From positions 1 to 20,536 of the IMG/VR virus record IMGVR_UViG_3300045970_000437: a DNA stretch of 20,536 nt. One strand, given 5' to 3'. Shown piece after piece: positions 1 to 20,536 of the stretch. Position numbers and translations under genes: made by a program. Positions within the stretch are counted from its first letter, which is position 1. Every line of letters starts with the position of its first letter. The stretch is from a virus. Under the pieces are notes generated by a model, which saw nothing but the letters and a program-made list of their open reading frames with translations, ran no database searches and was not told the DNA's origin.

Positions 1-1340
1 AGTAGGTAGCTGTTGCGGTCCTTGCCGTAGCCCGCGTCGGCCACGATGAGGTCAGGGTCGAACGGGGCGATGAATGCGTTGATCGCTTGCACGGCCTCAA
101 GGTCTCCGGACTGACTGTCTTCGAAGACCATGATGCCCAAGAGGTACTTCTTGTTGTTCACCGCGTTGCGGCCCATGACGATCACCCAGTTCAGGTGACC
201 CCAGTCGATCCCCACCGTGATGTGGGTCCAATCCGGCGTGCGGCTCGCGAGCATTTGGTGGCCCGCGATGGAGTATTCGAAGTCTTGCTCGGTGAGCAGC
301 ACGTTCTCACCGATGCTCGTCCTCCCCAGACAGTAGTTGTCGAAGAGTTGCTTGAACTTGTAGTCGATCCGCTTTTGCATCAAGGCGGTGGCGTTGATCC
401 ACGGGCAAATGGTTTGCGGGATCCAGTAGCCGTGGCAACCCGTGCGGTTGGGGTAGGCAGGGATCCAACGCCCCACCGTGCGGTCGAGATCACCCCGGCA
501 CTTGGTCTTGCGGCACTTGTAGACGTAGGTGCCCTCCTCCAAGTGTGAGGTCCCAACAGGGATGTCCTTCACTTGGATCACGTTGTCGGGGTAGTCGATG
601 GTTTGTTCCATGTTGCACGCCTTACACCGCACGTGCCATTCGAACTGGCACGAGGTCATGTAGGGCGCATCCACGCCACGGCCGGGGAGCGTCGGGGTGC
701 TCACCTCTCGGGTCAGGCCCCACGATGACGACGACAGCGACTCGCGGAAGGCAACCTCGATGCCCTCCTTCATCCGATCCTTCTCATCGAAGGTCACGCC
801 GTCCGCGTCGATGCCCTCACCAAGGTTCGACTCCCACGCGGAGCGGAGCAGCATGAACGACTGCCCGACGCGCTTGGTGTAGATCTGGTTCGGCACGCCG
901 ATGATGCGGCGCATCCGTGGGGTCTCGTTGATCGCCTCTTGGAGACGGGTGACGCTGAAGTCCACAAGCTGCTTGTCGCGGGGGAACGTGTAGATCCACT
1001 TCTTGTCGGGGTGCGTCCACAAGAACCAGAGCACCTCCGTGATGGATAGCTCGGAGATCCCGACTTGCCGCCCCTTCTTGTAGACCTTGTGCGGGTGGAG
1101 GTCACGAAGCGGCTGGATCAAGAACGGGCGATGGCGCACGAGCAAGCGCACCGCCTCGCGACTCGGCGTGGGCACGAGGTGCTCAGGCCCCAGCAGCTTC
1201 CGGATGTCGAAGGTGAACGGAGAGTTCTTCAACCGCCGGTAGTACATCGTCCACACCACCGGGTCCACCTTCGACAGCGCCTCAAGCGCGTCTGCCGTGG
1301 ACACGTCGGGCGAGGCTCGGAGTAGATCGTGAAGCTCCAT
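1..1340 (-). CDS. terL: Terminase large subunit (partial, C-terminus off window)
   Basis: This is the ATP-driven motor and nuclease that cuts concatemeric phage DNA and pumps it into the prohead. About 446 residues are present and the gene runs off the left edge. The N-terminal ATPase half shows a P-loop-like segment KKGRQVGISELS near residues 88-99 and a Walker B-like stretch ADGVTFDEKDRM near 178-190. A zinc-finger-like insert follows, with CKAC near 238-241 and two further cysteines about 33 residues on (CRKTKC). The nuclease half begins with VGIDWGHLNWV near 375, and a second acidic motif, LIVADAGYGKDRN, lies near 430. The cysteine insert recalls GpA-type terminases. The ATG at 1338-1340 follows the stop of the small-subunit gene by two bases, which suggests translational coupling. 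The terminase call is firm; the subfamily is inferred. Confidence 0.93.
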   Translation of the reverse strand, partial: MELHDLLRASPDVSTADALEALSKVDPVVWTMYYRRLKNSPFTFDIRKLLGPEHLVPTPSREAVRLLVRHRPFLIQPLRDLHPHKVYKKGRQVGISELSITEVLWFLWTHPDKKWIYTFPRDKQLVDFSVTRLQEAINETPRMRRIIGVPNQIYTKRVGQSFMLLRSAWESNLGEGIDADGVTFDEKDRMKEGIEVAFRESLSSSSWGLTREVSTPTLPGRGVDAPYMTSCQFEWHVRCKACNMEQTIDYPDNVIQVKDIPVGTSHLEEGTYVYKCRKTKCRGDLDRTVGRWIPAYPNRTGCHGYWIPQTICPWINATALMQKRIDYKFKQLFDNYCLGRTSIGENVLLTEQDFEYSIAGHQMLASRTPDWTHITVGIDWGHLNWVIVMGRNAVNNKKYLLGIMVFEDSQSGDLEAVQAINAFIAPFDPDLIVADAGYGKDRNSYL

Positions 1341-1342
1341 GC

Positions 1343-2275
1343 TCACCTCTTCCGCTTCATGGCTTCGGAGGCTTCGGCCTCTTCACGGTCGGTGATCCGG
1401 TCCTCTTCCCCGATCTTGTCGAGGAGGTCGGTGGCTTGCATCAACTCTGCTGCCACCTCGATGAGCCCGTCTTGAGGCGAGGCGTCAGCGGGTAGGGCCT
1501 TGAGGCTCGTGACGTGGGGCACGTGCTCCTTGAGGAACTCGTGGAACGAGCGGGCGCTGGCAGAGTCCTTCTTGGCCTCCGCCGTCTCGCCCCCACCTTC
1601 GAAGAGGACACGGTGCTCGACCCGGGCCACGGTCCCACCCGTCACCTCGCGCTCCTCGCGCTGGTAGTCGCGAAGCTCCCGCAGGATGAACTGCGACTCC
1701 CCGATGTTGAGCTTGCCGCCCGCCGCCAACGCCTCGGCCATGAGCCGGGTCGCCTTGGTGTAGAGGGCCTCGCCCAGCACGGAGGTCCGGTGCGTCTGCC
1801 GCAGCTTCATGGAGGTGGTGTACTCGGACATCCGCCGCTGCACCTCCACCTTGAACTCGGGGGAGTGCCACCAGTTCCGGATGGTGTTGCGGTGCTTGCC
1901 CAGCTTGTCGGCTATCTGCCCGACCGGCACCCCCTCCATGGTCAGTTCCAGCGCCCGCCGCTTCACCTTCGTCCACACCCACTCGGTCGCAACGCCCGCC
2001 ACCACGATGGCCGTCTTGGGATCGTCTTCGGGCTCGTCGCCGGGGGGCGTCGATTGGGCGGCGTTTTGCACAATGTTCGCAGGGGTGGGATCTTGAATAT
2101 CCCCCGGAGAACTCTTGGGGATTTCGGGATCAGCGGGCACTTCCACCACGGGCACAACGGGAGGGGTCGGTTGTGCGTCCTCTTGTGCAAGCAAACGCCC
2201 CTCGGCGGCCTGCCTAGCGGAGGGGTTGGACTGCACATTCGACCGCGCCTTCCCGTTCCTACCCTTCGCAGCCAT
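1343..2275 (-). CDS. terS: Putative terminase small subunit (HTH protein)
   Basis: This is probably the DNA-recognition subunit of the packaging terminase. The 310-residue protein starts with about 90 residues rich in Pro, Gln, Ala and acidic residues that look disordered. A helix-turn-helix follows at about 106-138 (ELTMEGVPVGQIADKLGKHR, then NTIRNWWHSPEF), the arrangement seen in small terminase subunits with a homeodomain-like DNA-binding end. A helical region (about 145-210) with many Arg and Glu could be the oligomerisation part, and the tail is highly charged. It ends two bases before the large-subunit gene, which is the main contextual support. Its start lies inside the end of the KH-domain gene, a 17-base overlap. 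A general HTH regulator is possible but less likely in this position. Confidence 0.75.
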   Translation of the reverse strand: MAAKGRNGKARSNVQSNPSARQAAEGRLLAQEDAQPTPPVVPVVEVPADPEIPKSSPGDIQDPTPANIVQNAAQSTPPGDEPEDDPKTAIVVAGVATEWVWTKVKRRALELTMEGVPVGQIADKLGKHRNTIRNWWHSPEFKVEVQRRMSEYTTSMKLRQTHRTSVLGEALYTKATRLMAEALAAGGKLNIGESQFILRELRDYQREEREVTGGTVARVEHRVLFEGGGETAEAKKDSASARSFHEFLKEHVPHVTSLKALPADASPQDGLIEVAAELMQATDLLDKIGEEDRITDREEAEASEAMKRKR

Positions 2276-2570
2276 CGAGGTGCCTCCGCCTCTTCGGATC
2301 AGGGTCGATGAGGTTCAAGACGTACTTGGAATTGTGCTTCCGGCTCATCGCCTTGAGGAGCGTCCGAATTGACTCAGCGTGCGCCCCCTCCTTGCCGATG
2401 AGCTTGCCGAAGTCGCTGCGCGCCACGTAGACCTCAAAGGTCACAGAGTCGGTGGCAGGGAACACCTCCACCCGCACGGCGCGCTCGTCGTCCACCAGCC
2501 CCCGCACGGTGGCTCCCAGCCACGCGTGCAAGGCCACTCGACCCGGTGCTGCCATCGTAGCGTCGCCCAT
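2259..2570 (-). CDS. KhpA-like KH-domain RNA-binding protein
   Basis: The 103-residue protein matches the layout of the small bacterial KH-domain protein KhpA (YlqC family), which binds RNA and in bacteria often partners with KhpB. The key segment is SDFGKLIGKEGAHAESIRTL at residues 52-71. Its GKEG loop (59-62) is the GxxG loop that grips single-stranded nucleic acid, and the helix after it has the KhpA pattern ending in IRTLL. Helical and strand segments before the loop also fit the KhpA fold order. The basic tail DPKRRRH is an extra. The ATG at 2568-2570 has a strong ribosome site (GGAGGG) about five bases upstream and sits one base after the previous stop. The gene lies directly before the terminase genes. 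The role in the phage is unknown. Confidence 0.82.
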   Translation of the reverse strand: MGDATMAAPGRVALHAWLGATVRGLVDDERAVRVEVFPATDSVTFEVYVARSDFGKLIGKEGAHAESIRTLLKAMSRKHNSKYVLNLIDPDPKRRRHLDGCEG

Positions 2571-2571
2571 C

Positions 2572-2892
2572 CTACCCTCCCACCTTCGGCAAGTTGCCCG
2601 CCTTCATCTGGCGGTAGATCGCGCCCTCTCGCTCCGCTCGGCCACGAGGGGTCTTGTCGAAGTCGGCCGACCTCTTGTTCATGCGCTCTCGGAACTCTTG
2701 CTTGTACGACTCGCGGCTCTCGGGGCTGCGACCCTTGGTCAACGTGACCAGAGCCCGCTGCGCGCACGGCATCTTCACCATGCGGACGCGCCGACACCTC
2801 GCGCAGTCCGGGAGGCGGGCGTCGTCCAGCAAGACATCGTGCTCCTCGACCCCACAGCGGGGGCATCGGAGATCAAACACCTTCAGGGACAT
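2572..2892 (-). CDS. FmdB-like zinc-ribbon protein
   Basis: A 106-residue protein with an N-terminal zinc ribbon: CPRC at residues 10-13 and CARC at 30-33, after a short beta strand (MSLKVFDLR). This resembles the FmdB-type zinc ribbons common in phages and bacteria, which have no settled function. The rest is helical and charged (many Arg, Glu and Lys) and could contact nucleic acid or another protein. The ATG at 2890-2892 is preceded by a strong GGAGGAA ribosome site. The first 20 bases overlap the end of the upstream nuclease-like gene. Zinc binding is inferred from cysteine spacing. Confidence 0.7.
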   Translation of the reverse strand: MSLKVFDLRCPRCGVEEHDVLLDDARLPDCARCRRVRMVKMPCAQRALVTLTKGRSPESRESYKQEFRERMNKRSADFDKTPRGRAEREGAIYRQMKAGNLPKVGG

Positions 2893-3301
2893 CGCGCTTC
2901 CTCCGGGCCTTTTTCGGCGTGTGGAGCTTCACGTGGGCGATGCGGAGACGCGAGCGCATCTCGGCCTCCGGGTTCCGCTGTACGTCCACGACCCTGCACT
3001 CCCACTTCTTCCGCGTCGTCTTGTTGGGCTTCTTCCATCCGTGAACGATGATGCGCCAGCCCGCGTCCTTGAGGATGGGGAAGTTGGGATGGCCGTGGAT
3101 CTTCGACTGCCTCCCAGCCACGTGGTCACCGGAGGTGGTTTGCACCCCCAGCGTCGGCTCCCCCTTCTTCACGCAGAGGATGTCGATGAAGCCGAAGAGA
3201 TCCTTGCGGATCCCGGAGAAGGCCGACCAGTGCTCAACGATCTCGCACGCCCAGCCGTCAGCGCGGAGAGACGCGAGAGATCGTTGAGTCGGTGAGGTCA
3301 C
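2873..3301 (-). CDS. Putative PD-(D/E)XK-fold nuclease-like protein
   Basis: The 142-residue protein resembles a phage family with the pattern TPTQRSL, then an Asp-Leu-Phe-Gly-Ile/Phe-Asp segment, then GVQ(T/A)TS. Here these are SPTQRSLASLRADGW at 3-17, RKDLFGFIDILCV at 32-44 and LGVQTTSGDHVAGR at 51-64. The order (Asp in one strand, Gln-x-Thr in the next) suggests the restriction-endonuclease fold of Holliday junction resolvases and VRR nucleases, but the usual Glu-x-Lys pair is replaced by Gln-Thr-Thr, so activity is uncertain. A basic tail (KKARRKR) ends the protein. The start is GTG at 3299-3301, in a GTGA overlap with the stop of the coiled-coil gene. The family resemblance is from memory and the fold is inferred. 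Confidence 0.55.
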   Translation of the reverse strand: MTSPTQRSLASLRADGWACEIVEHWSAFSGIRKDLFGFIDILCVKKGEPTLGVQTTSGDHVAGRQSKIHGHPNFPILKDAGWRIIVHGWKKPNKTTRKKWECRVVDVQRNPEAEMRSRLRIAHVKLHTPKKARRKRDVPEGV

Positions 3302-3930
3302 GTGGTGACCTGCCCCTTGGTCATGCCCTCGATGAACTGGGCTTCCTTCTTGGTGGGCGGCAGCACCTCGGCCAGCGCGGCACCACCCGCGAGCCGGTTG
3401 AGCTTGGAGGTCATCTCGTCCACCTCGGACAGCAGGCTCTTGTTGCTGTCCCGGGCCCGCACCAGCTTCTCGCTGACCTCGTTCACCCGGTTGATCATGC
3501 CGACCATCTCGGCGCGGAGCTTGGTGACCTCCTCCGTCTTCTCGTTGATGCGGCGACGGAGCTTCTTCGTGTCGGGGTCGCCCAGAAGATCGACCAGCCG
3601 CGCCACCTCGGCGCGGAGCGCGACCACCTTGGCCTCCGACTCGGCCAACTCGGAGCGGAGCGCGTCTCGCGCCATCCCCTCCTTGATGACCGCTTGCCGG
3701 GCGTCGAACAGCGTGCTGTCCGTCTGCTCCTTCAGCGCGCGCATCGCCACCTCGCCCCGGACCAAGAGCTTCTCGGCGTTGGCGAGCTTCGACTCGGCCT
3801 CCACCGTGAGCCGCAGGGAGTCCGCAGCCGGGACGAGGTCCCCCGCGTTGAACCGGGCCAGCTTGTCGAGCGCCTCGTCGCGCTGCGCCTTGAGCTTGTT
3901 GATCGTCTTGTGAACCTGATTGGTATTCAT
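3298..3930 (-). CDS. Coiled-coil protein of unknown function
   Basis: I do not recognise this 210-residue protein. Residues 5-175 are almost entirely charged helix with heptad-like hydrophobic spacing, for example ALRSELAESEAKVVALRAEV and KLRRRINEKTEEVTKLRAEM, so a long coiled coil is likely. The last 30 residues contain a Pro-Pro break and end KGQVTT. There is no signal peptide or membrane segment. The ATG at 3928-3930 is preceded by a CGGAGG ribosome site. The stop overlaps the GTG of the nuclease-like gene. The HNH gene ends only 10 bases upstream. A scaffold or structural role is possible, but nothing in the sequence fixes it. Confidence 0.7.
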   Translation of the reverse strand: MNTNQVHKTINKLKAQRDEALDKLARFNAGDLVPAADSLRLTVEAESKLANAEKLLVRGEVAMRALKEQTDSTLFDARQAVIKEGMARDALRSELAESEAKVVALRAEVARLVDLLGDPDTKKLRRRINEKTEEVTKLRAEMVGMINRVNEVSEKLVRARDSNKSLLSEVDEMTSKLNRLAGGAALAEVLPPTKKEAQFIEGMTKGQVTT

Positions 3931-3940
3931 GTTGCCTCCG

Positions 3941-4438
3941 TTATGCCACGTGAGCCCAGTTGATCCGCTGAACTACCTTGGAAACCGTTCGCTGGCACAC
4001 CCCGAACTGCGTGGCCGCGTCCTGCTGTCGCACCCCACTAGCGCACAGCCGCCGAATGGCGATCACTTCCGCGCGGGTGAGCTTGGAGCACCCGTGTCGC
4101 TCACCTCTGGGGCGCTGCTCGGGACGGGGTTGAGGGATGGGCGCATGACGGCCCTTGCGCCACATATCGTGCGAGTTGGTCGAGGCGCTGCCCAAGAACA
4201 GATGGCGAACGCACGGCGGGTTGTCACACTTGTGAAGAACCCATGATCCACGAGGAATCTCCCCTTTCCGAAACTGCCACGAAACCCGATGAGCGTAAGC
4301 AACCCGGCCAGCCAGATAGAATGTACCATAACCCTTCGGCAGTCGGCTACCCGTCCACTCCCAGCATCGAGTTTTCATCCCGGGCATGATCGGCCCGTTC
4401 TTATTCACCTTCACCCAAAACCGCTCACTTGTGGTCAT
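3941..4438 (-). CDS. HNH homing endonuclease-like protein
   Basis: A 165-residue protein typical of free-standing phage HNH endonucleases, selfish genes that cut DNA at a site and spread by repair. The N-terminal half has ERFWVKV, CWEWTG (25-30), AHRVSW (49-54), VLHKCDNPPCV (67-77) and HLFLGS (79-84), the usual His-Asn-His metal-finger layout with paired cysteines. The C-terminal half (118-165) is a helix-turn-helix (KLTRAEVIAIRRLCASGV, then QRTVSKVVQRINW) that probably recognises the target. I chose the ATG at 4436-4438, in an ATGA overlap with the SbcC stop; an in-frame ATG 42 bases upstream lies inside sbcC. Base composition looks less GC-rich than the neighbours, which fits recent acquisition. 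Confidence 0.88.
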   Translation of the reverse strand: MTTSERFWVKVNKNGPIMPGMKTRCWEWTGSRLPKGYGTFYLAGRVAYAHRVSWQFRKGEIPRGSWVLHKCDNPPCVRHLFLGSASTNSHDMWRKGRHAPIPQPRPEQRPRGERHGCSKLTRAEVIAIRRLCASGVRQQDAATQFGVCQRTVSKVVQRINWAHVA

Positions 4439-6309
4439 ACCGTTACCCGCGCGATTCCCCGTTCCTTCGTCACCAACCACGTCTTCGGGAAGTACGATTG
4501 CAGCCCTACTTGGTGCGTGATCACGAAGAGTGAAGAGTAGTTCTTCGCCTCCGCTTGCAACAACTCCATCACCGCGTCACAGGCGGTCTCATCGAGGCTT
4601 TCGAAGACCTCGTCGTAGAACGCGATGTTGAGTTGGGCGCGGGCGCGGGCGGCACCAAGGCGCTGGAGGGCGAGAGCAGCGCAGATATCCACCTTGCGCT
4701 TCTCACCTCCCGACTGCCCGCCGTAGGACGATGACCCATGCCGATTCACCGCTACCACCTCAAACCGATCACGAACCGCACCACTCTTGAGAGCCGACTG
4801 CGCTGAGAACTGAACAAGAAGGTTCCCAGAGGAGAGGTACTTCGAATAGTGGGCCGCGTGCTTGTTGAGGAACGGCGTCACGGATTCGAAGATCAAACCC
4901 TTGAGCGGGGGCGCTCCTTCGACACCCTTGTCGGAGAACATGGTCACCACGAACTTCTGGTGCTCCGCATCCGTCTTCAGCACCTCGATGCGCTTGGCCG
5001 CTGCCTTGGCCCCCGCCTCCCTGTTCTTGATCTTCTCGGTCAGCTTCTCAAGGCGAGTGAACCCGGTCCACTTCTCGTTCAGGACTCGGGCTAGCTCGGC
5101 CTCCCGGGCGATGATGCGCTCCTTCCCCTCCTCCGCAACCGCGAGGTCACGCTTGGCCGTCACCCACGCGGCGTACACCTTCCGCTCGGTGACGCCCTCC
5201 TTATCGGCGCGCTCCTCTGCCACCTCCACCACCTTCCGCGCCTCCACCACCTCGGCCTCCAGCTTGGCCGCGATCTTCTCGTGCTTGGCTCGGTCGGCCT
5301 TGAGCGTGGCCGTGTGCTGGTTGACCGTGTCCTCGGTGATCTCGGAGCCGCAATGCTCACAGACCACCCCGGGCTGGAGGTTGTCCATGCGCTTGAGCGA
5401 CTTGAGGAGGGCGAAGACCATCGTGCGCGCCTCTTGCGCCTTGATCTCGGCGGAGGCCCTCGCGTTGTTGGCCTCGCGAGCCTCCGTGTCTGCCGCCTTG
5501 CTCGCCGCCGTCGCCTTCACGTGAGCCGCCGACGCCTCCGCGAGCACCTTGGCCGCCTTCTTGGGCTCGCCTCCACTCTGGCGCTCCTTCGCCAGCGCCG
5601 CCGCCGCCGCCTCGGCCCGCTTGGCTTGCTGCGCGGAGAACTGCCGCCGCTCGTCCTCCAGATCCTTCAACTCCTCCTTCGAAGTCGCCAGCGTAGACGG
5701 GTCGAACTTCTCCTCCAGCGCCTCGATCTCCTCCGCGATCCGCGTGAGGTCCACGGTGGCCTCGGCGTGCGCCTTGCGGAGCACCTCCACGCCCACCAGC
5801 TTCTCCATGATCTCTTTCTGCTCCTTGTCCGTCATGGCCGGGAAGTGGCGCACCACCCCTTGGCCGAAGAGCGCGGCGTTCATGAAGGTGTCGAAGTCCA
5901 TCCCCACCAGCGCCTCGATCTTCTCTTGCGTGGCCCCGGGGTCGATGGTCGAGAGGTCACGCTTGCCCTCCGCGAGCAGGCGGAGCTTGTTCTTGTGCTC
6001 GTGGTGCTTGCGGTAGCGGACGATGGTGTACGGGTTGCCCTTGTCGTCCTCGATGGTCAGCGTGACAGAGCAGTCCTTGGGGAGCCGCTCGTTGACGATC
6101 TCATCTCCGGACATCCCGCGCACCGTCTCCCCGAAGAGCGCCCACGTGATCGCGTCGAAGATCGTGCTCTTCCCCGCGCCGTTGCTCTCTGCCGTGCGGT
6201 CGTCCTTGTTGTTGCCTTCGATGAGCACCAACCCTTGCCCGTCCAGCGGCAAGGGTCGGCACTCCCCAATGCTTTGGAAGTTGATCGGTTGCACCGTCAA
6301 CAGTTTCAT
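4435..6309 (-). CDS. SbcC/Rad50-like ATPase (T4 gp46 type)
   Basis: This is the ATPase subunit of the SbcCD/Mre11-Rad50 (gp46/gp47) complex, which processes DNA ends and feeds recombination-dependent replication. The 624 residues show all parts in order: Walker A ESNGAGKST at 41-49; a Q-loop region near 148-152 (FGQGV); coiled coil at about 160-310; a zinc hook CEHC at 317-320; a second coiled coil at 330-450; the ABC signature YGGQSGGEK at 529-537; Walker B NIAFYDE at 561-567; and the switch His in ITHQ at 597-600. It is short beside cellular SbcC (about 1000 residues) because the coiled coils are brief, as in phages. The nuclease partner is at 10614-11666, unusually far away. The stop overlaps the HNH start; the ATG overlaps the next upstream stop in an ATGA. 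Confidence 0.95.
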   Translation of the reverse strand: MKLLTVQPINFQSIGECRPLPLDGQGLVLIEGNNKDDRTAESNGAGKSTIFDAITWALFGETVRGMSGDEIVNERLPKDCSVTLTIEDDKGNPYTIVRYRKHHEHKNKLRLLAEGKRDLSTIDPGATQEKIEALVGMDFDTFMNAALFGQGVVRHFPAMTDKEQKEIMEKLVGVEVLRKAHAEATVDLTRIAEEIEALEEKFDPSTLATSKEELKDLEDERRQFSAQQAKRAEAAAAALAKERQSGGEPKKAAKVLAEASAAHVKATAASKAADTEAREANNARASAEIKAQEARTMVFALLKSLKRMDNLQPGVVCEHCGSEITEDTVNQHTATLKADRAKHEKIAAKLEAEVVEARKVVEVAEERADKEGVTERKVYAAWVTAKRDLAVAEEGKERIIAREAELARVLNEKWTGFTRLEKLTEKIKNREAGAKAAAKRIEVLKTDAEHQKFVVTMFSDKGVEGAPPLKGLIFESVTPFLNKHAAHYSKYLSSGNLLVQFSAQSALKSGAVRDRFEVVAVNRHGSSSYGGQSGGEKRKVDICAALALQRLGAARARAQLNIAFYDEVFESLDETACDAVMELLQAEAKNYSSLFVITHQVGLQSYFPKTWLVTKERGIARVTV

Positions 6310-6823: not shown

Positions 6824-7201
6824 TCAGCCCTCCTTGATCGTGTGGATGACCACGGTGATGCCCGCTTCCTTGGCGCGCTCCACCATGTCCTTCGTGCCCT
6901 TGCTGCGCTCGATGTGGTTGTGGAACGCCCAGACCATCCCGGGCTTTCCCTTGTCGAGCATACGCTGGTTCCGCAGCGGACCGGCCGCCTTGCCTTGCAG
7001 CATCCACAGCGCGGGGAAGACCTTCACCTTCATCCCCAGATACTTGGCGGCTTGCCCCGCCATCCGATCAGCGCCCCGGCACCCACCGTGGATCACCTTG
7101 GTGTCGCGGGGCAGCGTGCGGAGCATCATGAGGATGAGATCGTAGTCCTTCCAGTTCCGATCACCACAGATGAGCAGCGTGCCAGCGGTGGGACTCTTCA
7201 C
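6824..7201 (-). CDS. SLOG-fold protein (DUF2493, YspA/YpsA-related)
   Basis: The 125-residue protein matches the DUF2493 group of the SLOG superfamily, Rossmann-like folds that bind nucleotides or nucleotide-derived ligands. Motifs in order are TLLICGDRNWKDYDLI at 8-23, TKVIHGGCRGADRMA at 34-48 (the GGCRGAD ligand loop), KVKVFPALW at 58-66, GPLRNQRML at 74-82 and VWAFHN at 90-95. The chosen start is GTG at 7199-7201, because it makes a GTGA overlap with the upstream stop and has a GGAG site eight bases before. A longer reading from 7264 would run inside the neighbouring gene. The ligand and role in the phage are unknown. Members occur in many phages, and related SLOG domains act in nucleotide signalling. 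Confidence 0.83.
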   Translation of the reverse strand: MKSPTAGTLLICGDRNWKDYDLILMMLRTLPRDTKVIHGGCRGADRMAGQAAKYLGMKVKVFPALWMLQGKAAGPLRNQRMLDKGKPGMVWAFHNHIERSKGTKDMVERAKEAGITVVIHTIKEG

Positions 7202-7485
7202 GGCTTCGGCTCCGGGGGCTTGGCTCGGGAGCACGTCGGCTTGTGCCCGGTCTTCTTGCGGCACTCCTCGCAGGGGAAGGTGGCGATGACGGCCACCACC
7301 TTGTTGAGGGCGTTCCGGTAGTCACCCGCCTCCATCGCGCACGCCGACGCCTCACGCGGGTCGTCCTTGGCCGCCTGCCTCATCGCCTCGATGCCCATGT
7401 AGAGCGCGCGGCCCGTGGTCCGGACATCGGCCTCCGTCATCCCCTTGATCGCGTACACCCGGTGCTGCCTACGTTCTGCCGTCAT
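7198..7485 (-). CDS. Hypothetical protein with C-terminal cysteine cluster
   Basis: I do not recognise this 95-residue protein. Its first 65 residues look helical (DVRTTGRALYMGIEAMRQAA, then AMEAGDYRNALNKVVAVIAT). The end has CEECRKKTGHKPTC followed by a Pro/Lys-rich tail. The Cys-x2-Cys, His, Cys spacing could bind zinc. Both ends overlap their neighbours by four bases: ATGA with the methyltransferase stop and GTGA with the SLOG start. These three genes are therefore probably translated as a coupled set. Confidence 0.65.
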   Translation of the reverse strand: MTAERRQHRVYAIKGMTEADVRTTGRALYMGIEAMRQAAKDDPREASACAMEAGDYRNALNKVVAVIATFPCEECRKKTGHKPTCSRAKPPEPKP

Positions 7486-19925: not shown

Positions 19926-20536
19926 CTACCGCTTCTTCAGCAAGAGGATCGTCTTGAGCTTCTCGATGAAGAGTTTTGAGAACTCCTTGGTGTTGTGAAC
20001 CACCAGATGGTTCGTGTAGAACTTCGACACGGAGTCGTCCCCCATGCCGATACCGATCACCTCGATGCCCGCCGCCTCCGAATCCAACACCGACCGGCGC
20101 AGCGCCTCGGCGTGCTTCGCGATCACTTCCGACTTCTCGTAGAAGTCCGGATCATCCCGGATGTAGAGGAGGTCGGGCCGCCAGACATTCGGGAAGGGCT
20201 GCCCATCGTCCAGCATGAAGACGATGCGGCGAGTAACGTCCTTCCGCGCGAGAAGCCGGTTAGAGGCCAGCTTCACCGCCTCGGCGTCGTGCGTGTTGTG
20301 GCAGACCTTCGCTTCCATGATGCGGGGGGCCACCGCCTTCCACGATTCATCGAAGGTCTTGTACTCCTCGATGATCGTCCCGCCCCACCGCGTGTAGAGC
20401 TTCCTCAAGGAGGCAGGGCAGGCGGCCCACGTCTTGTGCCCCTCTATGTGCGTGGTCGAGTGACCCAGCACTTCGAAGGGGACTCCGATGGAACTCAGGC
20501 ACTCTCCGAAGATCATGGCCGCTTCGATTGCAAGCT
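19926..20536 (-). CDS. CobT-like cobaltochelatase/VWA protein (partial, N-terminus off window)
   Basis: The visible 202 residues match the C-terminal part of CobT, the VWA-type subunit of aerobic cobaltochelatase; many phages carry CobS/CobT-like pairs of uncertain function. The frame stays open through the window edge (LAIEAAMIFGECLSSIGVPF), which corresponds to the helix after the first metal-site motif, so the true start and the DxSxS motif lie outside. Other matches are FEVLGHST, KVCHNTHDAEAVKLASNRLL (the Asn-Thr-His-Asp segment) and RRIVFMLDDGQPFP, where CobT has a Ser-Asp-Gly-x-Pro strand. GIEVIGIGMGDDSVSKFYTN is the last conserved block. An AAA+ partner of CobS type would be expected nearby. 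Base composition is lower in GC than the neighbours. Confidence 0.82.
   Translation of the reverse strand, partial: LAIEAAMIFGECLSSIGVPFEVLGHSTTHIEGHKTWAACPASLRKLYTRWGGTIIEEYKTFDESWKAVAPRIMEAKVCHNTHDAEAVKLASNRLLARKDVTRRIVFMLDDGQPFPNVWRPDLLYIRDDPDFYEKSEVIAKHAEALRRSVLDSEAAGIEVIGIGMGDDSVSKFYTNHLVVHNTKEFSKLFIEKLKTILLLKKR

Follow-up and report, generated by a model that had tools for sequence, protein, structure and literature searches.

KhpA and KhpB bind RNA, and khpA usually lies in the bacterial neighbourhood ffh-rpsP-khpA-rimM-trmD. Residue I61 of pneumococcal KhpA is needed for homodimerisation, KhpA heterodimerises with the KH domain of EloR/KhpB via I61–L239 contacts, and some KH domains bind single-stranded DNA (PMC6403258). 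Phage-made KhpA-type proteins have hardly been described so far. A phage-encoded PF13083 domain (54.1 bits) is found in gp147 of the Tunturiibacter phage Tunturi_5 (XOB77590.1, hypothetical protein). This is a jumbo phage, however, whose ORFs are numbered starting at TerL (PMC11924767), so that gp147 lies far from TerL; none of the 38 features in the 24-kb stretch examined is annotated as terminase, and neither 'KH domain' nor 'RNA-binding' occurs in the passages of that paper examined or in its word counts.

The DNA analysed here (the window) is the entire virus record IMGVR_UViG_3300045970_000437, positions 1 to 20,536 (20,536 bases). Its TerL is related to those of the SPO1 group (Herelleviridae, Spounavirinae), with identities of 39.2% to SPO1, 40.7% to vB_EalM-132 and 35.5% to LysYB1, but PF13083 is absent from the whole genomes of these phages (0/3). 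The terminase gene cluster of the window contains the following features:

3..1346, minus strand: TerL, open at the contig end (PHROG 675, E 3.2e-96)
1343..2275, minus strand: TerS candidate, 310 aa, with HTH (Pfam HTH_23, 1e-5; weak match to PHROG 2538 TerS, E 2.7e-5)
2259..2570, minus strand: KH gene, 103 aa, ATG start, one type-II KH domain with its GKEG loop at residues 59–62, and a basic C-terminal tail
2572..2892, minus strand: FmdB-like zinc-ribbon gene, 106 aa, stop one base before the KH start, weak family matches only
2873..3301, minus strand: ORF of 142 aa, in the position that a PDDEXK_15 nuclease occupies in relatives

In an HMM search against KH families (Pfam), the KH protein passed the curated cut-off of the KhpA/KhpB KH superfamily (PF13083, KH_KhpA-B; E 1e-15, 57.8 bits versus a cut-off of 32.1, residues 21–86), which confirms the KhpA-like KH domain with intact GKEG loop named in the initial annotation. 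The 17-base overlap with the small-subunit gene (2259–2275) and the co-orientation with both terminase genes were likewise found as described there; all three genes are read from the minus strand, which the initial annotation does not specify. GC content at the three codon positions was 0.65/0.45/0.84 for the KH gene versus 0.68/0.46/0.84 for the TerS candidate (a single comparison, without a null model). Every window gene having a family match is carried by the minus strand, and none of the ten plus-strand ORFs searched, five of which overlap or flank the KH gene, matched Pfam at 0.01. A PHROGs search with the KH protein gave no match at 0.1. A chance or non-coding ORF at 2259–2570 was ruled out by the PF13083 match and the codon composition, and contamination by host DNA was rejected because the gene recurs in other phage records and is surrounded in the window by phage genes, namely SbcC-like, RecA/UvsX-like, phage SSB, DNA polymerase A and TerL (Pfam, PHROGs).

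TerL-related sequences were collected by protein pattern scans, which gave ten records from IMG/VR and a single contig of a MAG (12 records with the window, some of which may be fragments), and PF13083 was then sought across them. The KH gene was present in 6 of the 12 (6/11 with a duplicate merged), always in the cluster upstream of TerS–TerL. The bearers, all over the PF13083 cut-off, were the window and L002 (G001), L003 (G002), L005 (G004), L007 (G006) and L023 (G009), with 35.1 to 54.9 bits for the five cluster homologues outside the window. PF13083 was absent from L004 (G003), L006 (G005), L020 (G007), L021 (G008), L025 (G010) and the MAG contig L038; L020 and L021 are identical over their shared 9.8 kb, L025 shows only 37% identity, and PF13083 matches in G011, the MAG genome of L038, fall solely on other contigs. 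In L004, L006 and L038 the stretch from zinc ribbon to TerS was read directly and contained no KH gene, and further TerL queries and two KH sub-alignment searches gave no new records. The neighbourhood survey thus shows that the window is not a single case: a phage KH gene beside the terminase genes is a real and recurrent arrangement, undescribed as far as searched. Its absence from half of these records makes the gene dispensable in the group, but since it recurs in several related uncultured tailed phages, it may have a working role in late infection and be more than a stray gene. L038, whose TerL is related to these and which was binned into a MAG of Patescibacteria, carries an HU/IHF-like gene at 3880–4227 (PF00216, 6e-9) together with a 67-aa ORF between zinc ribbon and TerS, the interval that holds KH elsewhere.

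The distance from the zinc-ribbon stop to the KH start was 1, 1, 1, 9, −4 and −4 bases in the six KH-bearing records, gene starts being chosen by hand (G001 has a TTG further upstream, inside the zinc-ribbon gene; for G002 a GTG was taken, although an ATG lies 48 bases inside this frame and longer ones could be read). The end of the KH gene lies 0.9 to 2.4 kb from TerL in these six. When ORFs of at least 55 aa were read by eye, no separate one stood between KH and TerS in the window and G006, at least one short ORF did so in G002, G004 and G009, and the gap of about 1.7 kb in G001 held two, one of 391 aa and a short one with an HTH. Since ORFs intervene before TerS in 4/6 records and the zinc-ribbon gaps stay between −4 and +9 in 6/6, the zinc-ribbon link is the tighter one, and the closest conserved partner of the KH gene is the upstream FmdB-like zinc-ribbon gene, not TerS. 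The initial annotation had placed the gene directly before the terminase genes; the position upstream of TerS–TerL is recurrent, but immediate adjacency fails in those four records. Its wider description as a feature of the packaging region stands as regards recurrence, but needs narrowing to a patchy gene whose nearest constant neighbour is the zinc ribbon.

The window zinc-ribbon ORF gave matches below the cut-offs to Zn_ribbon_IS1595 (0.0013) and the NCBIfam FmdB model (0.049). That of L002 matched the FmdB-like PHROG 1076 (3e-4) but nothing in the phage collection, and that of L005 had no PHROG match. A common C-terminal stretch without known function, about R...R..KRS..H....G..EAI.R, is shared by the zinc-ribbon proteins of the window (2572–2892), L002, L003, L005, L006, L007 and L023, which occur in the terminase cluster with or without KH. 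The TerS of L003 had a PHROG TerS match at 1.2e-8; a tblastn search of the phage collection with the window TerS candidate gave no hit. Upstream of the zinc ribbon, PDDEXK_15 nucleases were found in L002 and L007, the two relatives scanned (PF24608, 4.7e-31 and 6.1e-26); the alignment of ORFs in this position, other relatives included, is weak, with 19–31% identity, and the 142-aa ORF of the window had no Pfam or PHROG match.

A structure model of the window KH protein was built from a six-row alignment. In alignments A1 and A5, L002 is one residue short at its N-terminus, and L003 is entered from a point lying between two candidate starts. Mean pLDDT was 79.5, with 87–89 per ten residues in the core. 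The predicted elements (H9–25, E33–38, E42–48, H51–58, H60–79, E82–88) follow the α-β-β-α-α-β order of type-II KH domains, with GKEG (59–62) between helices 2 and 3. The sole Foldseek match at E ≤ 0.001 was 8p2f_d, a chain of a Staphylococcus ribosome entry that we take to be ribosomal protein S3, and Thermus KhpB/EloR ranked third (2.5e-3). VIA-align ranked T. thermophilus KhpB/EloR first among solved folds, without RNA (9lrg; Z 9.4, rmsd 2.6 over 81) and then with RNA (9lri; Z 9.2, rmsd 3.5 over 88), but an entry for an archaeal RuvB-like helicase, along with several chains from ribosomes, tied within 1 Z. Since other KH folds tie at this level, the subfamily cannot be told from the fold: the model says KH, and the KhpA/KhpB type is assigned from sequence.

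Both glycines of the GxxG loop are invariant in 6/6 aligned phage homologues (GKEG in the window, GRDG in three, GSGG and GSHG in one each), and Lys or Arg stands within the loop in four; the intact loop thus extends to the relatives in its glycines, but not in its basic residue in the GSGG and GSHG proteins. Predicted pI values were 8.9, 6.6, 6.8, 4.8, 5.3 and 4.8, so only the window protein is clearly basic. The residue equivalent to I61, with the alignment read via the R59–T60–I61 motif, is L, L, V, L, L and L, hydrophobic in 6/6, which fits a KhpA-like dimer.

NCBIfam KhpA-type models outscored Jag/EloR on the window protein (3e-13 versus 0.0023; Jag_EloR 17.9 of 145 bits), and the KhpA cut-offs were not reached (PRK00468, 49.9 of 106; PRK01064, 46.2 of 85; PRK02821, 38.6 of 106 bits). 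With KhpA it shares a single type-II KH domain, similar size, the GxxG loop and the hydrophobic I61-equivalent residue. It differs in sequence, with 36.8% identity to the best bacterial copy in the phage collection (over 72% of it) and 38.8% in the plasmid collection, and in surroundings, its gene lying with the zinc ribbon, TerS candidate and TerL, not among ffh, rpsP, rimM and trmD. Judged by these scores and neighbours it is KhpA-like, yet not assignable to KhpA proper. Unlike in KhpB/EloR/Jag, the solved KH fold that VIA-align ranks first for its model, no Jag-N or R3H domain was found in it, KH_KhpA-B being the only Pfam domain over cut-off in its 103 aa.

The phage collection (50,697 records) was searched with KH queries from the window, L003, L023 and Tunturi_5 at E up to 1, and among the 12 distinct records matched Tunturi_5 was the one credible phage. 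The other 11 are unannotated and marked UNVERIFIED, and the flanks of all 11 were read as ORFs, not family-searched. Nine have a khpA-type gene immediately preceded by an S16 (rpsP)-like ORF (L009, L043, L044, L046, L047, L049, L050, L058, L059), L045 has a khpA-type gene followed by a RimM-like ORF and truncated on its upstream flank, and L048 has KhpB between YidC-like and MnmE-like ORFs. All 11 were set aside, as khpA or khpB beside ORFs read as bacterial neighbours. The UNVERIFIED records that are named phage but carry khpA or khpB beside ORFs read as ffh, rpsP, rimM, yidC or mnmE (MT835475.1, MT836999.1, OR846632.1 and eight like them) look like bacterial contaminants. No KhpA-type family in PHROGs matched the KH proteins of the window or its relatives, that of L003 matching a family of unknown function at 0.065. 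Literature text searches, judged by listings, found no paper on a phage KhpA-type protein or on a KH domain with phage terminase. The KhpA-type KH gene thus looks rare in described phages, in agreement with the initial annotation, which had called it unusual in a phage packaging region. Against rarity count phage proteins of similar fold in a viral fold library (BFVD), uncharacterised, with a best E of 0.0019 and none at E ≤ 0.001; A0A6J5S5E0 superposed on the window KH model with an rmsd of 1.7 (TM 0.61/0.68). Both A0A6J5S5E0 and A0A6J5PF67 are uncharacterised proteins of uncultured phages with a similar predicted fold. In the plasmid collection six records had a KH match. Of the two examined, one, from Monoglobus, keeps KH in the customary order ffh-rpsP-KH-rimM-trmD; the other is the conjugative Granulicella plasmid NC_015058.1 (L056), where a KH gene at 52925–53212 stands among regulators and no rpsP is annotated in the stretch covered.

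RNA regulation is ranked first because KhpA and KhpB bind RNA, and packaging second because of the neighbouring genes. The best explanation, held tentatively and at somewhat less than even confidence, is a dimeric single-stranded-RNA-binding protein of the KhpA/KhpB superfamily that acts on late phage messages and is coupled to the FmdB-like zinc-ribbon protein. The KH protein would be made from the terminase gene cluster, apparently in translational coupling with the zinc ribbon, and would pair via its third helix, as KhpA does. The two KH clefts would grip short stretches of single-stranded RNA, most likely in the phage's own late messages, whose translation or stability would be set as packaging starts. 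Support comes from PF13083 in 6/6 homologues, the higher scores of KhpA-type over Jag/EloR models, the KhpB/EloR top fold, GxxG and the hydrophobic I61-equivalent residue in 6/6, and the position directly after the zinc ribbon in 6/6. The GSGG and GSHG loops, the non-basic pI of the relatives and the absence from 6/12 records weaken this reading. It also counts against an RNA regulator that every Rfam family stays below its gathering score in the window. The HU/IHF-like gene in the KH interval of L038 points away from RNA and to work on DNA.

The same gene can be read, with rather lower probability, as an accessory of packaging or DNA processing, in which KH and zinc-ribbon proteins would bind single-stranded DNA or RNA and help TerS–TerL or the nuclease to recognise or clear DNA. 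IHF is a known helper of lambda terminase, and the HU/IHF-like gene that separates the zinc ribbon of L038 from TerS favours this reading, as does the recurrent order nuclease, zinc ribbon, KH, TerS, TerL (from ORF reading, with PDDEXK_15 confirmed in the two relatives scanned). Binding of single-stranded DNA by some KH domains (PMC6403258) is consistent with it. However, the motor works without KH in the 6/12 TerL-related records that lack it, about 1.7 kb and two ORFs separate KH from TerS in G001, the window ORF in the nuclease place is without a family match, and gene order says little about whether proteins act together. A KH protein that a phage lineage has built into its packaging module, and that with the coupled zinc ribbon would help terminase to choose or prepare its substrate, or would tie translation of late mRNA to the start of packaging, is unlikely; the HU/IHF-like protein in the same interval of a relative bears on this proposal. 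A recurrent terminase-linked KH gene offers a handle on whether phages regulate late messages post-transcriptionally or, alternatively, on whether an RNA-type binding domain serves in packaging.

Takeover of the host, by a phage KH protein that replaces or decoys host KhpA in the KhpA–KhpB heterodimer and so alters host translation or cell-wall growth, is improbable. The I61–L239 heterodimer reported in PMC6403258 makes it conceivable, the window protein having Leu at the matching place, but the position among packaging genes suggests late, not early, expression, and the homologues are divergent, with 19–50% mutual identity.

TerL identities among these phages (44–68%) are higher than those of KH, which marks KH as a fast-changing gene; L007 and L023 are 48–50% identical in KH, depending on the alignment, and the window KH protein shares 20–33% with the other phage proteins. 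KH and TerL identities correlated weakly (r 0.39), short of significance (45/720 permutations as high in an exact Mantel test). On the TerL tree, where L025 is a long branch and only 4/11 inner branches are well supported, KH presence needs at least three changes, outgroups counted as lacking KH. On the KH tree five phage proteins form a modestly supported group (83/91), from which the window protein stays weakly apart; a single clade of six was not rejected (AU p 0.5), the tree being too weak to date capture. Common descent with losses is likely from these sequences. Repeated capture of host khpA into one permissive place, without a settled phage function, is the least probable reading: the window protein is as close to bacterial KhpA as to its phage kin and stands weakly outside the other five, and the TerL tree asks for those three or more changes, but the zinc-ribbon neighbour is the same in 6/6, one clade is compatible with the data, and KH and TerL identities rise together, if not significantly.

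Elsewhere in the window, a CobT-like VWA protein is encoded at 19926–20516 (PF11775, 2.2e-9) and a YspA/SLOG-family protein at 6824–7264 (PF10686, 7.8e-10), and an HNH endonuclease ORF with an HTH end (3941–4480) overlaps the end of the SbcC-like ORF at 4435–6309.
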